Positions 3,535 through 7,563 of a stretch of DNA of 37,168 nucleotides are shown here, one piece after another. The DNA lies in IMG/VR virus record IMGVR_UViG_3300042563_000114, positions 1 through 37,168 of that record. The stretch is one strand, 5' to 3'. This DNA comes from a virus. Position numbers and translations under genes: made by a program. Below the pieces are notes generated by a model that worked only from the letters and a program-made list of their open reading frames with translations, had not been told where the DNA came from and searched no databases. Numbering within the stretch: position 1 is the first letter of the stretch; every line of letters begins with the position of its first letter.

Positions 3535-3747
3535 TTGTCCACTATTTTTAAATTAGTGATAGCATCCTTGGCAACATATAAGCCAAATACAGAACCGCCC
3601 CCCAAAAGAGGGCGACCCCCTAAAACAATATATGACATCGACCGAACTAAAATCGATGAGGTAATCTATGACCGTAAAAAACCTGATGATGGTTTGCGAA
3701 GCCAAATTAGTTTTGGAAAAGCAAGGCGCAACGACAGGAAAAATTGA
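3535..3747 (+). CDS. Possible small basic protein with an AT-hook-like motif
   Basis: A 70-codon frame lies in the gap between portal and protease and runs 80 bases into the protease gene. It has no ATG; TTG at 3535 or an internal GTG would have to serve. The product is rich in Lys, Arg and Pro and contains PPPKRGRPPK, whose GRP core resembles an AT-hook, a minor-groove DNA-binding motif. I do not recognise a family for the rest. Without it there would be about 140 non-coding bases in an otherwise tight operon, which favours a real gene. The poor start codon and the overlap argue against. Confidence 0.35.
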   Translation: MSTIFKLVIASLATYKPNTEPPPKRGRPPKTIYDIDRTKIDEVIYDRKKPDDGLRSQISFGKARRNDRKN

Positions 3748-4447
3748 AGCAACCGTAACTACTTGGGGTGCGCGTGAAGGCGCAGATGGTAGGCGGTTTA
3801 ATTATCAGCCTGAAGGGTTTATGAAATGGGCAGAAGATTTTTCTGCATCAGGTCGCCCACTACCCATGTTTGTAAATCACGATGCGGATGCAATCCCCGT
3901 TGGTCAATGGGATGCGTTTGAGTTTGACGATACAGGAATGAAAGCCGAAGGGCGTTTGTTTGTCAATACTACGATGGGTTCTGACCTTTACAAAGTAATG
4001 CAAGAAAGCCCCGCTATGTTTGGCGGCGTTTCCGTTGGCGCATACGCCGAAGAATATCAAATGGTCAATTCTGAAGGCGAACCCGACCAATCTGATGAAG
4101 CATATTTCCAAATCACTAAAGGCGGCTTACGCGAAGTATCCGTAGTGATGTATCCCAACAACCCACAAGCAGAAGTTAGCAGATTGGAATATTTCCGACC
4201 TGATGGTTCTGCGGATTTAAAAGTTTTAGAACAAGCCTTGCGTGAAGTTGGGCTATCTAAAAAGGATGCGGTAGCCGCCGCATCTACATTCAAAAAGGTG
4301 TTGGAATTGCGTGATGTAAAACCCGCACTTATTGAAATTGCGCCTATTCTGAGTGAATCAGATGCGGAGGCTACCGAAGCGGAAATTCTCGCGGCTTTAG
4401 AAACCCGTGAACTTCTTAAAATTCTTGATACCAAAATTAAAGGTTAA
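3668..4447 (+). CDS. Prohead protease, HK97 (U35-like) family
   Basis: 259 residues. The enzyme should cleave the N-terminal delta (scaffold) domain of the capsid protein during prohead maturation. Visible family marks are PEGFMKWAEDF, a histidine in FVNHDADAIPVGQWD and the serine in the FGGVSVGAY motif, then a third element GGLREVSVVMYPNNPQAEV. These fit the Ser-His catalytic arrangement of caudoviral serine proteases. After about residue 180 comes a charged helical tail that may assist assembly. A GAGG sequence stands at suitable distance before the start. The gene lies four bases before the capsid gene. Confidence 0.9.
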   Translation: MTVKNLMMVCEAKLVLEKQGATTGKIEATVTTWGAREGADGRRFNYQPEGFMKWAEDFSASGRPLPMFVNHDADAIPVGQWDAFEFDDTGMKAEGRLFVNTTMGSDLYKVMQESPAMFGGVSVGAYAEEYQMVNSEGEPDQSDEAYFQITKGGLREVSVVMYPNNPQAEVSRLEYFRPDGSADLKVLEQALREVGLSKKDAVAAASTFKKVLELRDVKPALIEIAPILSESDAEATEAEILAALETRELLKILDTKIKG

Positions 4448-4450
4448 ATC

Positions 4451-5791
4451 ATGTCACAAGCAATTATTGAAAAACTGGATGCTATTGAAGCCAAGCAAAG
4501 CGAAAGCATTGCCGCAGTAGAAGCAAAAATTCCCGCCGCTGTTGAGGCAATTAAAAACGAAATGCAAGAAACCATTGCCGCTTTGGAAGCCAAAGTAGCA
4601 TCGATTCAAGCACCCGCAATCGTCAAGCCCGCTACAACCGTGCGTGGTGATGTAAACCGTTCTGTTAAAGAACAACTTTCTACTTTCTACAAAGGTAACA
4701 ACCGTGTAGAAAAAGAACTGCAAATTTTTGCTGACGAATCACAAATGCAAGCGTATTTAAAAGAGGCATCAGCATTGACCGCAGGCGGCGATGGCAAAGG
4801 TGGTCGCACCGCCTATGACCCCGTGTTTGCCGCTTTGCGTTTGGCTAATCCCTTGCGCGGCGTGTCACGCACAGTAGCAACCGATGGTTCTTCATATCAA
4901 TTTCGTGTCAAAACTGGTAATGCGGGCGCGGCATGGGGCTATGCGATTCAAAACAACGGTGCTGATACAACTGAAAACACAAGCATTTGGCAATTAGTTT
5001 TGCAAGACTTGAATGTTCAGTTTCCAATTCGTACCGCGGCATTGGATGACATTGATGGTTTGGAAGCCAATGTTGTTGACGATATGTTGGCCGAGTTTAG
5101 TCAGGCCGAAGCCTTATCAATGATTCAAAACAATGACCAAGGTGCAACATCATTGCCATACGGCGGAAGCAACGGTTTGCGTGGCCTTGACCAATACGCA
5201 GGTTCTAATGCTACCTATGCAGGTGGTACTTGCTCTACAGCGGCTTTTGGTTCTACTGGTACAGGTTCTTCAAGCGGCTTGCATAGCCTTGCTACTTACG
5301 ACCAAACAACCACTAACGCGGCAACAGTTGGCGCAAACAACATCACCTATACCGATGTAGTTAACTTTATCTATCAATTGCCACAACAATACTGGACTGC
5401 AAACGCTAAGTTTGTGATTAGCCCAATCTTGTTGAACGCAATTCGTGCATTGAAAGACAACAACGGCGCACCTATCTTTAACCGTAACGAAGGTTTGTCG
5501 GTTGAAGGCATCGTTGGTCAGTTGATGGGCTTTGATGTTGTCGTTAACAAGTATTGCGATACACCATCACAAACAACAGCAGGTTCAGCAGGTACAAATT
5601 CTTTGTATCCAATGTTCTTTGCTGATTGGTCACGTTTCCACACAATCGTTGACCGTTTAAACATGGTTATGCGCCGCTACGACCAGACGGCCCCAGGATT
5701 TATAACATTTTTTGGGGAAAAACGCCTTTGCACAAGTGTTCGCGACCCATTCGCAGGTGTTCGTTATCGCTCGACAGGCACAGCGACCTAA
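4451..5791 (+). CDS. Major capsid protein, HK97 fold, with delta domain
   Basis: 446 residues. Residues 1-55 form a predicted coiled coil rich in Ala, Glu and Lys (EKLDAIEAKQSESIAAVEAK), as in the removable delta domain of HK97 gp5. The mature part seems to begin near residue 100 (KEASALTAGGDGKGG) and carries AALRLANPLRGVSR, TSIWQL, FPIRTAALDDI, MIQNNDQ, SNGLRGL, and an end block GEKRLCTSVRDPFAGVRY. It should build the icosahedral shell. It follows the protease directly, and an intrinsic terminator ends it. The next gene encodes a clear paralogue lacking the coiled coil. Codon use resembles the neighbours. Confidence 0.92.
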   Translation: MSQAIIEKLDAIEAKQSESIAAVEAKIPAAVEAIKNEMQETIAALEAKVASIQAPAIVKPATTVRGDVNRSVKEQLSTFYKGNNRVEKELQIFADESQMQAYLKEASALTAGGDGKGGRTAYDPVFAALRLANPLRGVSRTVATDGSSYQFRVKTGNAGAAWGYAIQNNGADTTENTSIWQLVLQDLNVQFPIRTAALDDIDGLEANVVDDMLAEFSQAEALSMIQNNDQGATSLPYGGSNGLRGLDQYAGSNATYAGGTCSTAAFGSTGTGSSSGLHSLATYDQTTTNAATVGANNITYTDVVNFIYQLPQQYWTANAKFVISPILLNAIRALKDNNGAPIFNRNEGLSVEGIVGQLMGFDVVVNKYCDTPSQTTAGSAGTNSLYPMFFADWSRFHTIVDRLNMVMRRYDQTAPGFITFFGEKRLCTSVRDPFAGVRYRSTGTAT

Positions 5792-5808
5792 TCATTGCGT
5801 TGCCATTA

Positions 5809-5837
5809 GCGGGGGGCGAAAATCCCCCGCTTTTTTT
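5809..5837 (+). terminator. Intrinsic terminator after the major capsid gene
   Basis: A seven-pair GC stem (GCGGGGG with CCCCCGC) and an eight-base loop are followed by seven T residues. This is a textbook rho-independent terminator, placed 18 bases after the capsid stop and 14 before the second capsid-like gene. In the middle of a head operon it would lower downstream expression, so the capsid protein could be made in excess over the paralogue and neck proteins. Alternatively it may protect the 3' end of the capsid message. Confidence 0.85.
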
Positions 5838-5850
5838 AAAAGGAATCACC

Positions 5851-6879
5851 ATGACCGTAACCCAAAAAATCCTATCCGCAATTCAAGAAACTATCCAAAC
5901 AGGCGAACGCGTATCAATTGATTTGCGCGAAGCATCTGCGCTTACGGGTTCGGGTAATGGCATTGGTGGTCGAACTTATTTTGATGATGCGTTTGCGGCT
6001 TTGCGTTTTGCAAATCCCGTTAGACAACTTTCCCGCGTAATTTCCGCATCAGGTTCAAGCGTTCAATTTGTTGCTAAGACAGGTAACGCGGCTAATCAAA
6101 CAAACCCGTTTGGTTACACATTCACACCTGACAGCGGAACACCAAATACAAATACATCGATTTGGCAATTGCCTACGCGTGTAATCACAGCGCAATTACC
6201 AATTCGAACTGCGGTTCTTTCAGATGTTAATTATTTAAACGAAACCATTGTTGAAGATTTAATGCTTGAGTTCGCCAATATTGAAGGCGCATCAATGGTT
6301 TTGAACAATGACCAAGCGGGTTCAACAACTACAGTAAACGGCGGCACAAGCGGTTTGCGTGGTTTAAATATGTACACTAGCGCGGCATCATCTGCTTTTG
6401 GTACAAGTGGAACAGCAATTACAAATGGTATTCATTCAATTGCTACATACACGCAAGCGGCGGCGGCAGTTACTTATTCAGATATTACTGATATGGCTCG
6501 TTTATTCCCTGCTCAATATTGGAATTTACCCAATACAGCATGGATGATGCACCCACAAACAATTCACGAATTACGCAACTTAGGCAGTGGAACAACAATC
6601 AAACAATTTGCTGAAACTGGTGATGATGATGGCGGTGCTGTTGTCAATATCTTTGGTTTCCCTGTAATTGCCAATCCAAATATGCAAACAACAGGCGCGG
6701 GAAAATTTAACATTTACTTGGCTAATTGGCCTAGATTTGTAACTGTTGCTGATGTTGAGGAAATGACTATACAGGCAATGGAACAAACACAAGCAGGCTT
6801 CATAACCCTGTTTGCAGAAAAACGTCTTGTAAGCACCGTGCGCGACCCGTTTGCGGGTATTCGTTTGGTCGGCGTATAA
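5851..6879 (+). CDS. Second capsid-like protein, paralogue lacking the delta domain
   Basis: 342 residues from the ATG at 5851, which has AAAAGGA at good spacing; a longer frame back to 5728 would run through the terminator and is rejected. The sequence aligns with the preceding capsid protein from LREASALTGSGNGIGGRT (residue 25) to the last block EKRLVSTVRDPFAGIRLVGV, sharing FANPVRQLSR, TSIWQLP, LPIRTAVL and SGLRGL. About 78 N-terminal residues, including the coiled coil, are absent. It could be a minor shell component such as a vertex (pentamer) protein, as T4 gp24 is to gp23, or a diverged duplicate. The role is inferred; the homology is seen directly. Confidence 0.88.
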   Translation: MTVTQKILSAIQETIQTGERVSIDLREASALTGSGNGIGGRTYFDDAFAALRFANPVRQLSRVISASGSSVQFVAKTGNAANQTNPFGYTFTPDSGTPNTNTSIWQLPTRVITAQLPIRTAVLSDVNYLNETIVEDLMLEFANIEGASMVLNNDQAGSTTTVNGGTSGLRGLNMYTSAASSAFGTSGTAITNGIHSIATYTQAAAAVTYSDITDMARLFPAQYWNLPNTAWMMHPQTIHELRNLGSGTTIKQFAETGDDDGGAVVNIFGFPVIANPNMQTTGAGKFNIYLANWPRFVTVADVEEMTIQAMEQTQAGFITLFAEKRLVSTVRDPFAGIRLVGV

Positions 6880-6891
6880 CAAGGGGCTTAA

Positions 6892-7563
6892 ATGTCTGTA
6901 GATAGCCAACTACTAGGTGCGCCCTACGGGGCGGCTACACGCAATCCGTTTAACTATGTAAAGTTTGAACAGATTGGGCGCGATGTTGTTACGCCTTGGT
7001 TAACTTTAAGTGAAATCACCAATCAAATTAACTTATTTGAAGATGAATCACAAGATGGCTATTTGCAAGCATTAGAACTAGCCGTTCGCCAAGCAATTGA
7101 AGATTACTTAGGCTTGTCTATTTTTTCAGTTACATACCGTGTTTGGTACGGTGCTGAAAACTTAGCCAGTTCGCCTGTGTGTTTAGATTTGCCAGAAGTA
7201 TCTCAAAACCAATACCCTAATCAAGCGGGCGTAACGGTTAACCGAGTTGCATATTGGAACAACAGCACACCGCCTGTTTTGACTGTGATTGCCACAAATC
7301 AATATTATTACGACCCAAGTGGTAACAAAGTTATCATTCAATCATTGCCTACAAGCATCAATAGCGAGATGACAGCACCGATTATTTGCGAGTACACGAC
7401 CGCACCTAATCCGTTGCAAACATACCCCGTCATTAAACAAGCGGGCTTGTTGTTGTTCACGCACTTGTATAACAACCGTAGCAACACAACTGATAACCAA
7501 CTAAAAGAAATACCTTTTGGTGTGGCTACCTTGTTACGCCCATACAAACCTTTGGTGATGTAA
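6892..7563 (+). CDS. Head-tail connector, phiE125 gp8 / HK97 gp6-like
   Basis: 223 residues. It should form the ring that extends the portal channel at the neck. The segment DVVTPWLTLSEITNQINLFEDESQDGYL followed by LELAVRQAIEDYLGLSIF matches the usual opening of gp6-like connectors (a helix pair preceding a beta domain), and the closing block VIKQAGLLLFTHLYNNR...LKEIPFGVATLLRPYK is typical of the phiE125 gp8 group. Position after the capsid genes and directly before a head-closure protein agrees. Its stop codon touches the next start. Confidence 0.82.
   Translation: MSVDSQLLGAPYGAATRNPFNYVKFEQIGRDVVTPWLTLSEITNQINLFEDESQDGYLQALELAVRQAIEDYLGLSIFSVTYRVWYGAENLASSPVCLDLPEVSQNQYPNQAGVTVNRVAYWNNSTPPVLTVIATNQYYYDPSGNKVIIQSLPTSINSEMTAPIICEYTTAPNPLQTYPVIKQAGLLLFTHLYNNRSNTTDNQLKEIPFGVATLLRPYKPLVM

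Follow-up and report, generated by a model that had tools for sequence, protein, structure and literature searches.

A conserved pair of tandem HK97-type capsid genes in small freshwater phages and a possible vertex role for the second

Two HK97-type capsid genes in one head module

Why would a small phage encode two shell proteins of the same family side by side, and what might the second one do? The question is raised by virus record IMGVR_UViG_3300042563_000114, a stretch of 37,168 bases that we analyzed as a whole (hereafter the window). From position 426 its head module encodes, in order, the terminase large subunit, portal, prohead protease, two capsid proteins (MCP1 and MCP2) and a head-tail adaptor. 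The prohead (head maturation) protease, a Peptidase_S78 (3668..4447, + strand; Pfam PF04586, 1.1e-11; phrog_80, 4.1e-14), lies immediately upstream of MCP1 (4451..5791, + strand), a major capsid protein of 446 aa with an N-terminal delta region that matches Pfam PF05065 (8.7e-30) and phrog_10 (8.2e-26). MCP2 (5851..6879, + strand; 342 aa; PF05065, 1.1e-19) is directly followed by the adaptor gene (6892-7563). Both proteins score well above the curated cut-off of PF05065 (104.5 and 71.4 bits against 24.2), and they align with each other at 40% identity over 341 columns (BLASTP, 237 bits, 4e-79). The first-pass annotation of 4451-6879 as two tandem capsid genes, the second homologous to the first across its shell domain, is thus confirmed: MCP1 and MCP2 are HK97-type capsid paralogs. 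PF05065 is the only family that MCP2 matches at E <= 0.1; the T4 capsid proteins have a separate Pfam family of their own, and MCP2 showed no match to it at that threshold. The two best viral-library matches to MCP2 are capsid proteins of uncultured phages (one of 414 aa, 42% identical; the other of 435 aa, 40%).

A mechanical open reading frame for MCP2 begins at TTG 5728 and overlaps MCP1; we rejected this start. ATG 5851 is preferred because it is preceded by a ribosome-binding-like AAGGA (5840..5844, + strand, read from the sequence) and because relatives align with its product from the first residue onward.

Structure prediction of both proteins, which had been proposed as a check, was informative for MCP2 and failed for MCP1. 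The AF2 model of MCP2 (mean pLDDT 67.9, pTM 0.69) finds its best solved match in the RcGTA capsid protein (Rcc01687; 6tb9_A5; VIA-align Z 22.2, rmsd 4.2 over 260 residues; Foldseek 6e-16) and indicates that the HK97 fold is retained. T4 gp24 chains are absent among the best 50 structure matches listed for this model, which is uninformative either way. For MCP1, the mean pLDDT of 54.1 is too poor for comparing hexamer and pentamer surfaces; its predicted HK97 fold comes from the profile match, with which the Foldseek list is consistent. By profile, the RcGTA protein ranks first for both (MCP1 4.6e-11, MCP2 1.1e-05), so that 6tb9 is the closest solved capsid by profile for the pair and by fold for the MCP2 model.

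The second capsid protein lacks the delta coil

The alignment pairs residue 103 of MCP1 with residue 25 of MCP2, an offset that reproduces the approximately 78 N-terminal residues noted as missing at first pass. About 25 residues therefore precede the shared domain in MCP2 versus 103 in MCP1, a shortening that would be expected of a vertex paralog. The delta coiled coil occupies approximately residues 1-52 of MCP1 (4451..4606, + strand), where ILVMF residues fill 53% of heptad positions a/d versus 20% elsewhere (86 representatives; best of seven registers) and where the low-confidence AF2 model draws a single helix from residue 3 to 51. This region belongs to MCP1 only, and the coil is missing from MCP2 throughout the aligned representatives, in line with the initial claim. 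The rest of the MCP1 pro-region (residues 53-103; 4607..4759, + strand) extends to the residue at which the MCP2 alignment begins. By analogy with the family, the protease would trim the delta region off MCP1.

Near its N-terminus MCP2 does retain a conserved helix of roughly 17 residues (residues 3-17; 5857..5901, + strand), visible in the alignment of relatives and in the AF2 model (pLDDT about 70-74). The suggestion that MCP2 is independent of processing is unproven, because this helix is kept and because T4 gp24 and Ccm, a capsid paralog of the satellite SaPIbov5, are both cleaved. In the P19250A branch (L181, L173, L183 and others), the linker after the helix is longer by about 6-14 residues, and this added stretch is rich in Lys and Glu.

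A conserved hairpin separates the two genes

A terminator-like hairpin with a T-run lies between the capsid genes (5808..5837, + strand). Seven of the 9 pairs in its stem (5808-5831) are G-C, and T6 follows. The hairpin is the sole strong + strand terminator of the window under a rule of at least 7 stem pairs, at least 6 G-C pairs and at least 5 T. The strong terminator read at first pass is thus real, and it is widespread: terminator-like hairpins occur in 159 of 161 distinct MCP1-MCP2 spacers (from 273 loci; 38-348 nt, median 58), as opposed to 238 of 3220 dinucleotide shuffles. Even the two misses (L202 and L251) have the hairpin, with a T count that is too low. Hybrid stems, built by swapping arms among 75 distinct inner 7-pair stems, had 70% of their positions paired, and 6.8% of them paired throughout, versus 100% for own arms, a value fixed by how the stems were picked; this poor pairing of swapped arms means that the stems vary yet preserve pairing.

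Four loci (L251, L281, L283 and L286) carry an extra open reading frame between the hairpin and MCP2, and the hairpin remains at the MCP1 end. It is therefore an attribute of the MCP1 3' end. The extra frame has about 100 codons (L251:1326-1616; about 4250-4540 in the other three); that of L251, tested as 97 aa, matches phrog_2859, a family of unknown function.

How might MCP2 then be expressed? Promoter-like sites between 3500 and 9000 number 10, no excess over the shuffle mean of 10.0. This, together with the short spacers, disfavours a dedicated MCP2 promoter and leads us to prefer read-through, although a promoter within MCP1 that drives MCP2 is still conceivable. C-ending codons of Phe, Tyr, Ile and Asn mark highly expressed genes. 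Their mean share is 0.57 in MCP1 and 0.40 in MCP2, and MCP1 leads in 172 of 189 loci, as it does in 83 of 86 representatives; the genes upstream and downstream of the pair average 0.39 (n=165) and 0.40 (n=173). The contrast is slight when the window is taken by itself, since portal and adaptor match MCP1 in these codons. Codon bias and hairpin together indirectly suggest an abundant MCP1 and a scarce MCP2. The idea that the terminator makes MCP2 scarcer therefore stands in part: the hairpin is conserved and codon bias agrees, but a structure tied to MCP1 should lower all genes downstream rather than MCP2 alone.

The pair is old, widespread and under selection

Scans of viral_contigs, which overlap, confirmed 315 relatives of MCP2, 574 of MCP1, 59 of the MCP1 of phage P19250A and 256 of a fragment of locus L227. 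Each scan contributed no more than its 80 best matches, which weights the sample towards close relatives, and some contigs occur twice. MCP1 is followed by MCP2 in 286 of the 306 retrieved loci (153/161, 56/65 and 77/80, the set of 161 including the window's own locus twice and P19250A). Nineteen of the other 20 end, with their contig, inside or beside one capsid gene. The last, L227 (L227:1-7144), is a doubtful exception: behind the MCP1 end and hairpin it encodes, where MCP2 is expected, a protein of 158 aa and then the beginning of a tail gene. It resembles L228, a locus with MCP2, only as far as just past the hairpin, and may be a recombinant, a single-capsid relative or an assembly chimera. 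Beyond this foreign phage gene pair, L227 carries opposite-strand frames that look bacterial by eye.

The carriers, small phages from freshwater with genomes of ordinary size, form a large group. All six relatives found in genome_contigs sit in metagenome-assembled genomes, and their hosts are therefore unsure. Three of them (L225, L223 and L224) were binned with archaeal, alphaproteobacterial and gammaproteobacterial genomes, respectively, which probably reflects binning errors or varied hosts.

Both capsid genes are under purifying selection. Among 600 sampled pairs with MCP1 88-98.5% identical, 489 had usable dS, and median dN/dS was 0.107 for MCP1 and 0.105 for MCP2 (maximum for MCP2, 0.27). 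In 207 records, near-copies included, both genes are complete. On these values we rejected MCP2 as a pseudogene or annotation artefact. We built a tree from 45 MCP1 and 45 MCP2 sequences (from 45 of the 86 representatives, P19250A included); one branch with 100/100 support, present in 200/200 bootstrap trees, splits the paralogs into clean clades, and the duplication therefore predates the whole group.

MCP2 can nevertheless differ sharply between close relatives. Between L233 and L237, for example, the flanks are about 94-100% identical and MCP2 is 52-73% identical (200-base steps). In this pair (L233:4271-5284) and in L042/L153 and L073/L156, MCP2 appears replaced by a version 48-79% identical (nucleotides, 200-base steps), with borders near the gene ends; segment identity adds L096/L010, L164/L175 and L064/L063 as divergent pairs. 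Nucleotides 500-750 of MCP2 fall below 80% identity in 14 of 148 close pairs, the highest count of all windows (0-8 in the others). Where both flanks are at least 90% identical, MCP2 is below 80% in 9 of 97 pairs, versus 5 of 120 in upstream controls (mostly MCP1) and 1 of 116 downstream. We tone down a reading of MCP2 as an exchanged cassette because these controls soften the contrast and the pairs are not independent. A single MCP1 can at least pair with markedly different MCP2 proteins, since variants that are mutually 61-68% identical accompany near-identical MCP1.

A probable pentamer protein

We consider it reasonably probable, largely by analogy, that MCP2 is a scarce specialised shell subunit and most likely the pentamer protein. 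This reading draws on T4 gp24 and Ccm, both described as capsid paralogs with shortened pro-regions that form pentamers, and on the tandem retention, the selection on both genes, the conserved hairpin, the codon contrast and the HK97 fold. MCP2 would be an ancient copy that lost its delta coil. MCP1, with its coil, would drive procapsid assembly and fill the hexamers; partial terminator read-through would yield smaller amounts of MCP2, which would borrow scaffolding from the delta regions of MCP1 in the procapsid and, as pentamers, occupy the eleven vertices that lack the portal. The protease would trim MCP1, and MCP2 would be present at the vertices of the virion. A T=7 head, as described for Peru-2 (PMC13320782), is built of 415 subunits arranged in 60 hexamers and 11 pentamers. 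We infer such heads for these phages of 37-39 kb, in which case 55 copies of MCP2 and 360 of MCP1 are predicted.

Several observations weaken the case. The two shell domains share 40% identity, and taken by itself the sequence gives no fivefold signal. The C-terminal part of the MCP2 A domain, which would make the fivefold contacts (residues 201-300; 6451..6750, + strand), is the least conserved shell segment, with a mean pairwise identity of 0.53 versus 0.63-0.69 in the other shell segments (86 representatives; segment borders set by us from the HK97-like model). L227 may, moreover, be a relative without MCP2. Finally, the fold does not require a separate penton, since RcGTA builds both capsomers from one protein.

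A more particular role is conceivable, although we think it unlikely: MCP2 would be a penton protein whose outward A domain, or whole gene, swaps among close relatives as the hexamer protein stays constant. The vertices would then be a fast-changing identity tag on an otherwise constant shell, a variety that might be maintained by satellites that pirate capsids, by competing phages or by host defences that sense the capsid.

Among the alternatives to a pentamer protein, the one that survives best, still with a small share of our confidence, is that MCP2 mixes as a minor subunit into hexamers and pentamers alike, tuning curvature, stability or surface from no fixed position. The 40% identity and the conservation of the N-arm, spine-helix and C-terminal segments are compatible with this, and the tolerance of a near-identical MCP1 for divergent MCP2 variants fits a loosely fitted partner. 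Against it, in both HK97-fold precedents (gp24 and Ccm) the paralog is described as confined to pentamers.

Two further possibilities appear improbable to a similar degree. In one, the action of MCP2 is confined to a special site, for example the ring of subunits surrounding the portal, and helps to start assembly; its location among head genes and an expected expression as low as that of its low-codon-bias neighbours would suit such a role, but the literature examined holds no HK97-type example, and in RcGTA the portal-surrounding subunits are described as the ordinary capsid protein with an altered N-arm (PMC7296036). In the other, MCP2 is conditional and redirects capsid size, spoils the capsids of satellites or rivals, or serves as a decoy for capsid-sensing host defence. 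Ccm is an example of a paralog that changes the size of the capsid (PMC8569155), and MCP2 is the commonest site of local divergence; its near-universal retention and strong purifying selection nevertheless better fit a core virion part.

That MCP2 is a leftover duplicate, with the hairpin as no more than the customary terminator of a major capsid gene, agrees with the hairpin's place at the MCP1 3' end and is hardly credible given the dN/dS, the 207 records complete for both genes, the lack of degraded copies among the relatives examined and a split that predates the group.

If MCP2 is indeed the penton protein, capsids would have arrived repeatedly at a division of labour between hexamers and pentamers by duplicating a gene and shedding the scaffold arm of one copy, and the conserved hairpin would be a simple gene-dosage device setting the stoichiometry of the two. 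The isolate P19250A, itself within the 37-39 kb range, would make the question directly testable.

Comparison with known capsid systems

The first-pass annotation likened the pair to T4 gp23/gp24, and the parallel is apt. T4 gp24 is described as a minor vertex protein present in 55 copies that forms pentamers (PMC9958956, PMC5694885), and it loses 10 N-terminal residues where gp23 loses 65 (PMC9958956). In both systems one of two capsid paralogs has a much shorter pro-region, and MCP2, like gp24, is encoded in the same head module as its major partner. In T4 the head is large and prolate and the scaffold is made of separate proteins, whereas here the scaffold lies inside MCP1, as in the HK97/GTA type. 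Furthermore, gp24 is about 20% identical to gp23 as compared with 40% for the pair described here, and the pentamer position of MCP2 is a prediction.

Ccm of SaPIbov5, which the first-pass annotation did not name, is a closer precedent than gp24 for MCP2. According to the account in PMC8569155, Ccm works alongside the capsid protein of phage phi12 and takes pentamer positions only, has a delta domain of 87 versus 128 residues, builds no shells by itself and shifts the head from prolate to isometric. It is without the long N-arm that joins hexamers at the threefold axes, an absence thought to block threefold hexamer contacts, and the short N-terminus of MCP2 fits this logic. Both cases involve an HK97-type system with an in-built delta domain and a paralog in which that domain is shortened or missing. 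Ccm, however, is satellite-encoded and still has a delta domain, whereas MCP2 is without the delta coil and belongs to the phage's own operon, where its gene is flanked by MCP1 and the head-tail adaptor.

RcGTA provides the contrasting case, in which one capsid protein forms both hexamers and pentamers of an oblate head derived from T=3 (PMC7296036). The proteins called minor capsid proteins in Milano (PMC10491603) and Peru-2 (PMC13320782) are described as having jellyroll-like and Ig-like folds, on which ground we rejected them as parallels.

The sole phage record matching at 1e-5, and the only isolate found, is Methylophilaceae phage P19250A (KX815270). It has the same gene order and a hairpin in the spacer, and its MCP1 and MCP2 are about 61% and 56% identical to those of the window. 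Its record labels MCP1 as 'gene transfer agent capsid protein' and MCP2 as 'hypothetical protein', and gives no function for the pair. Phage Venkman has been called syntenic with P19250A (PMC8163748); we rejected it as a relative, since its genome (MT375522, L162) encodes one major capsid protein and a scaffolding protein and has no match to MCP1 or MCP2. Our search of largely open-access literature found no published description of this tandem pair. Overall, capsid paralogs acting as pentons are known from T4 and from a satellite; the pair in this lineage appears new, and a penton role for it is a proposal.
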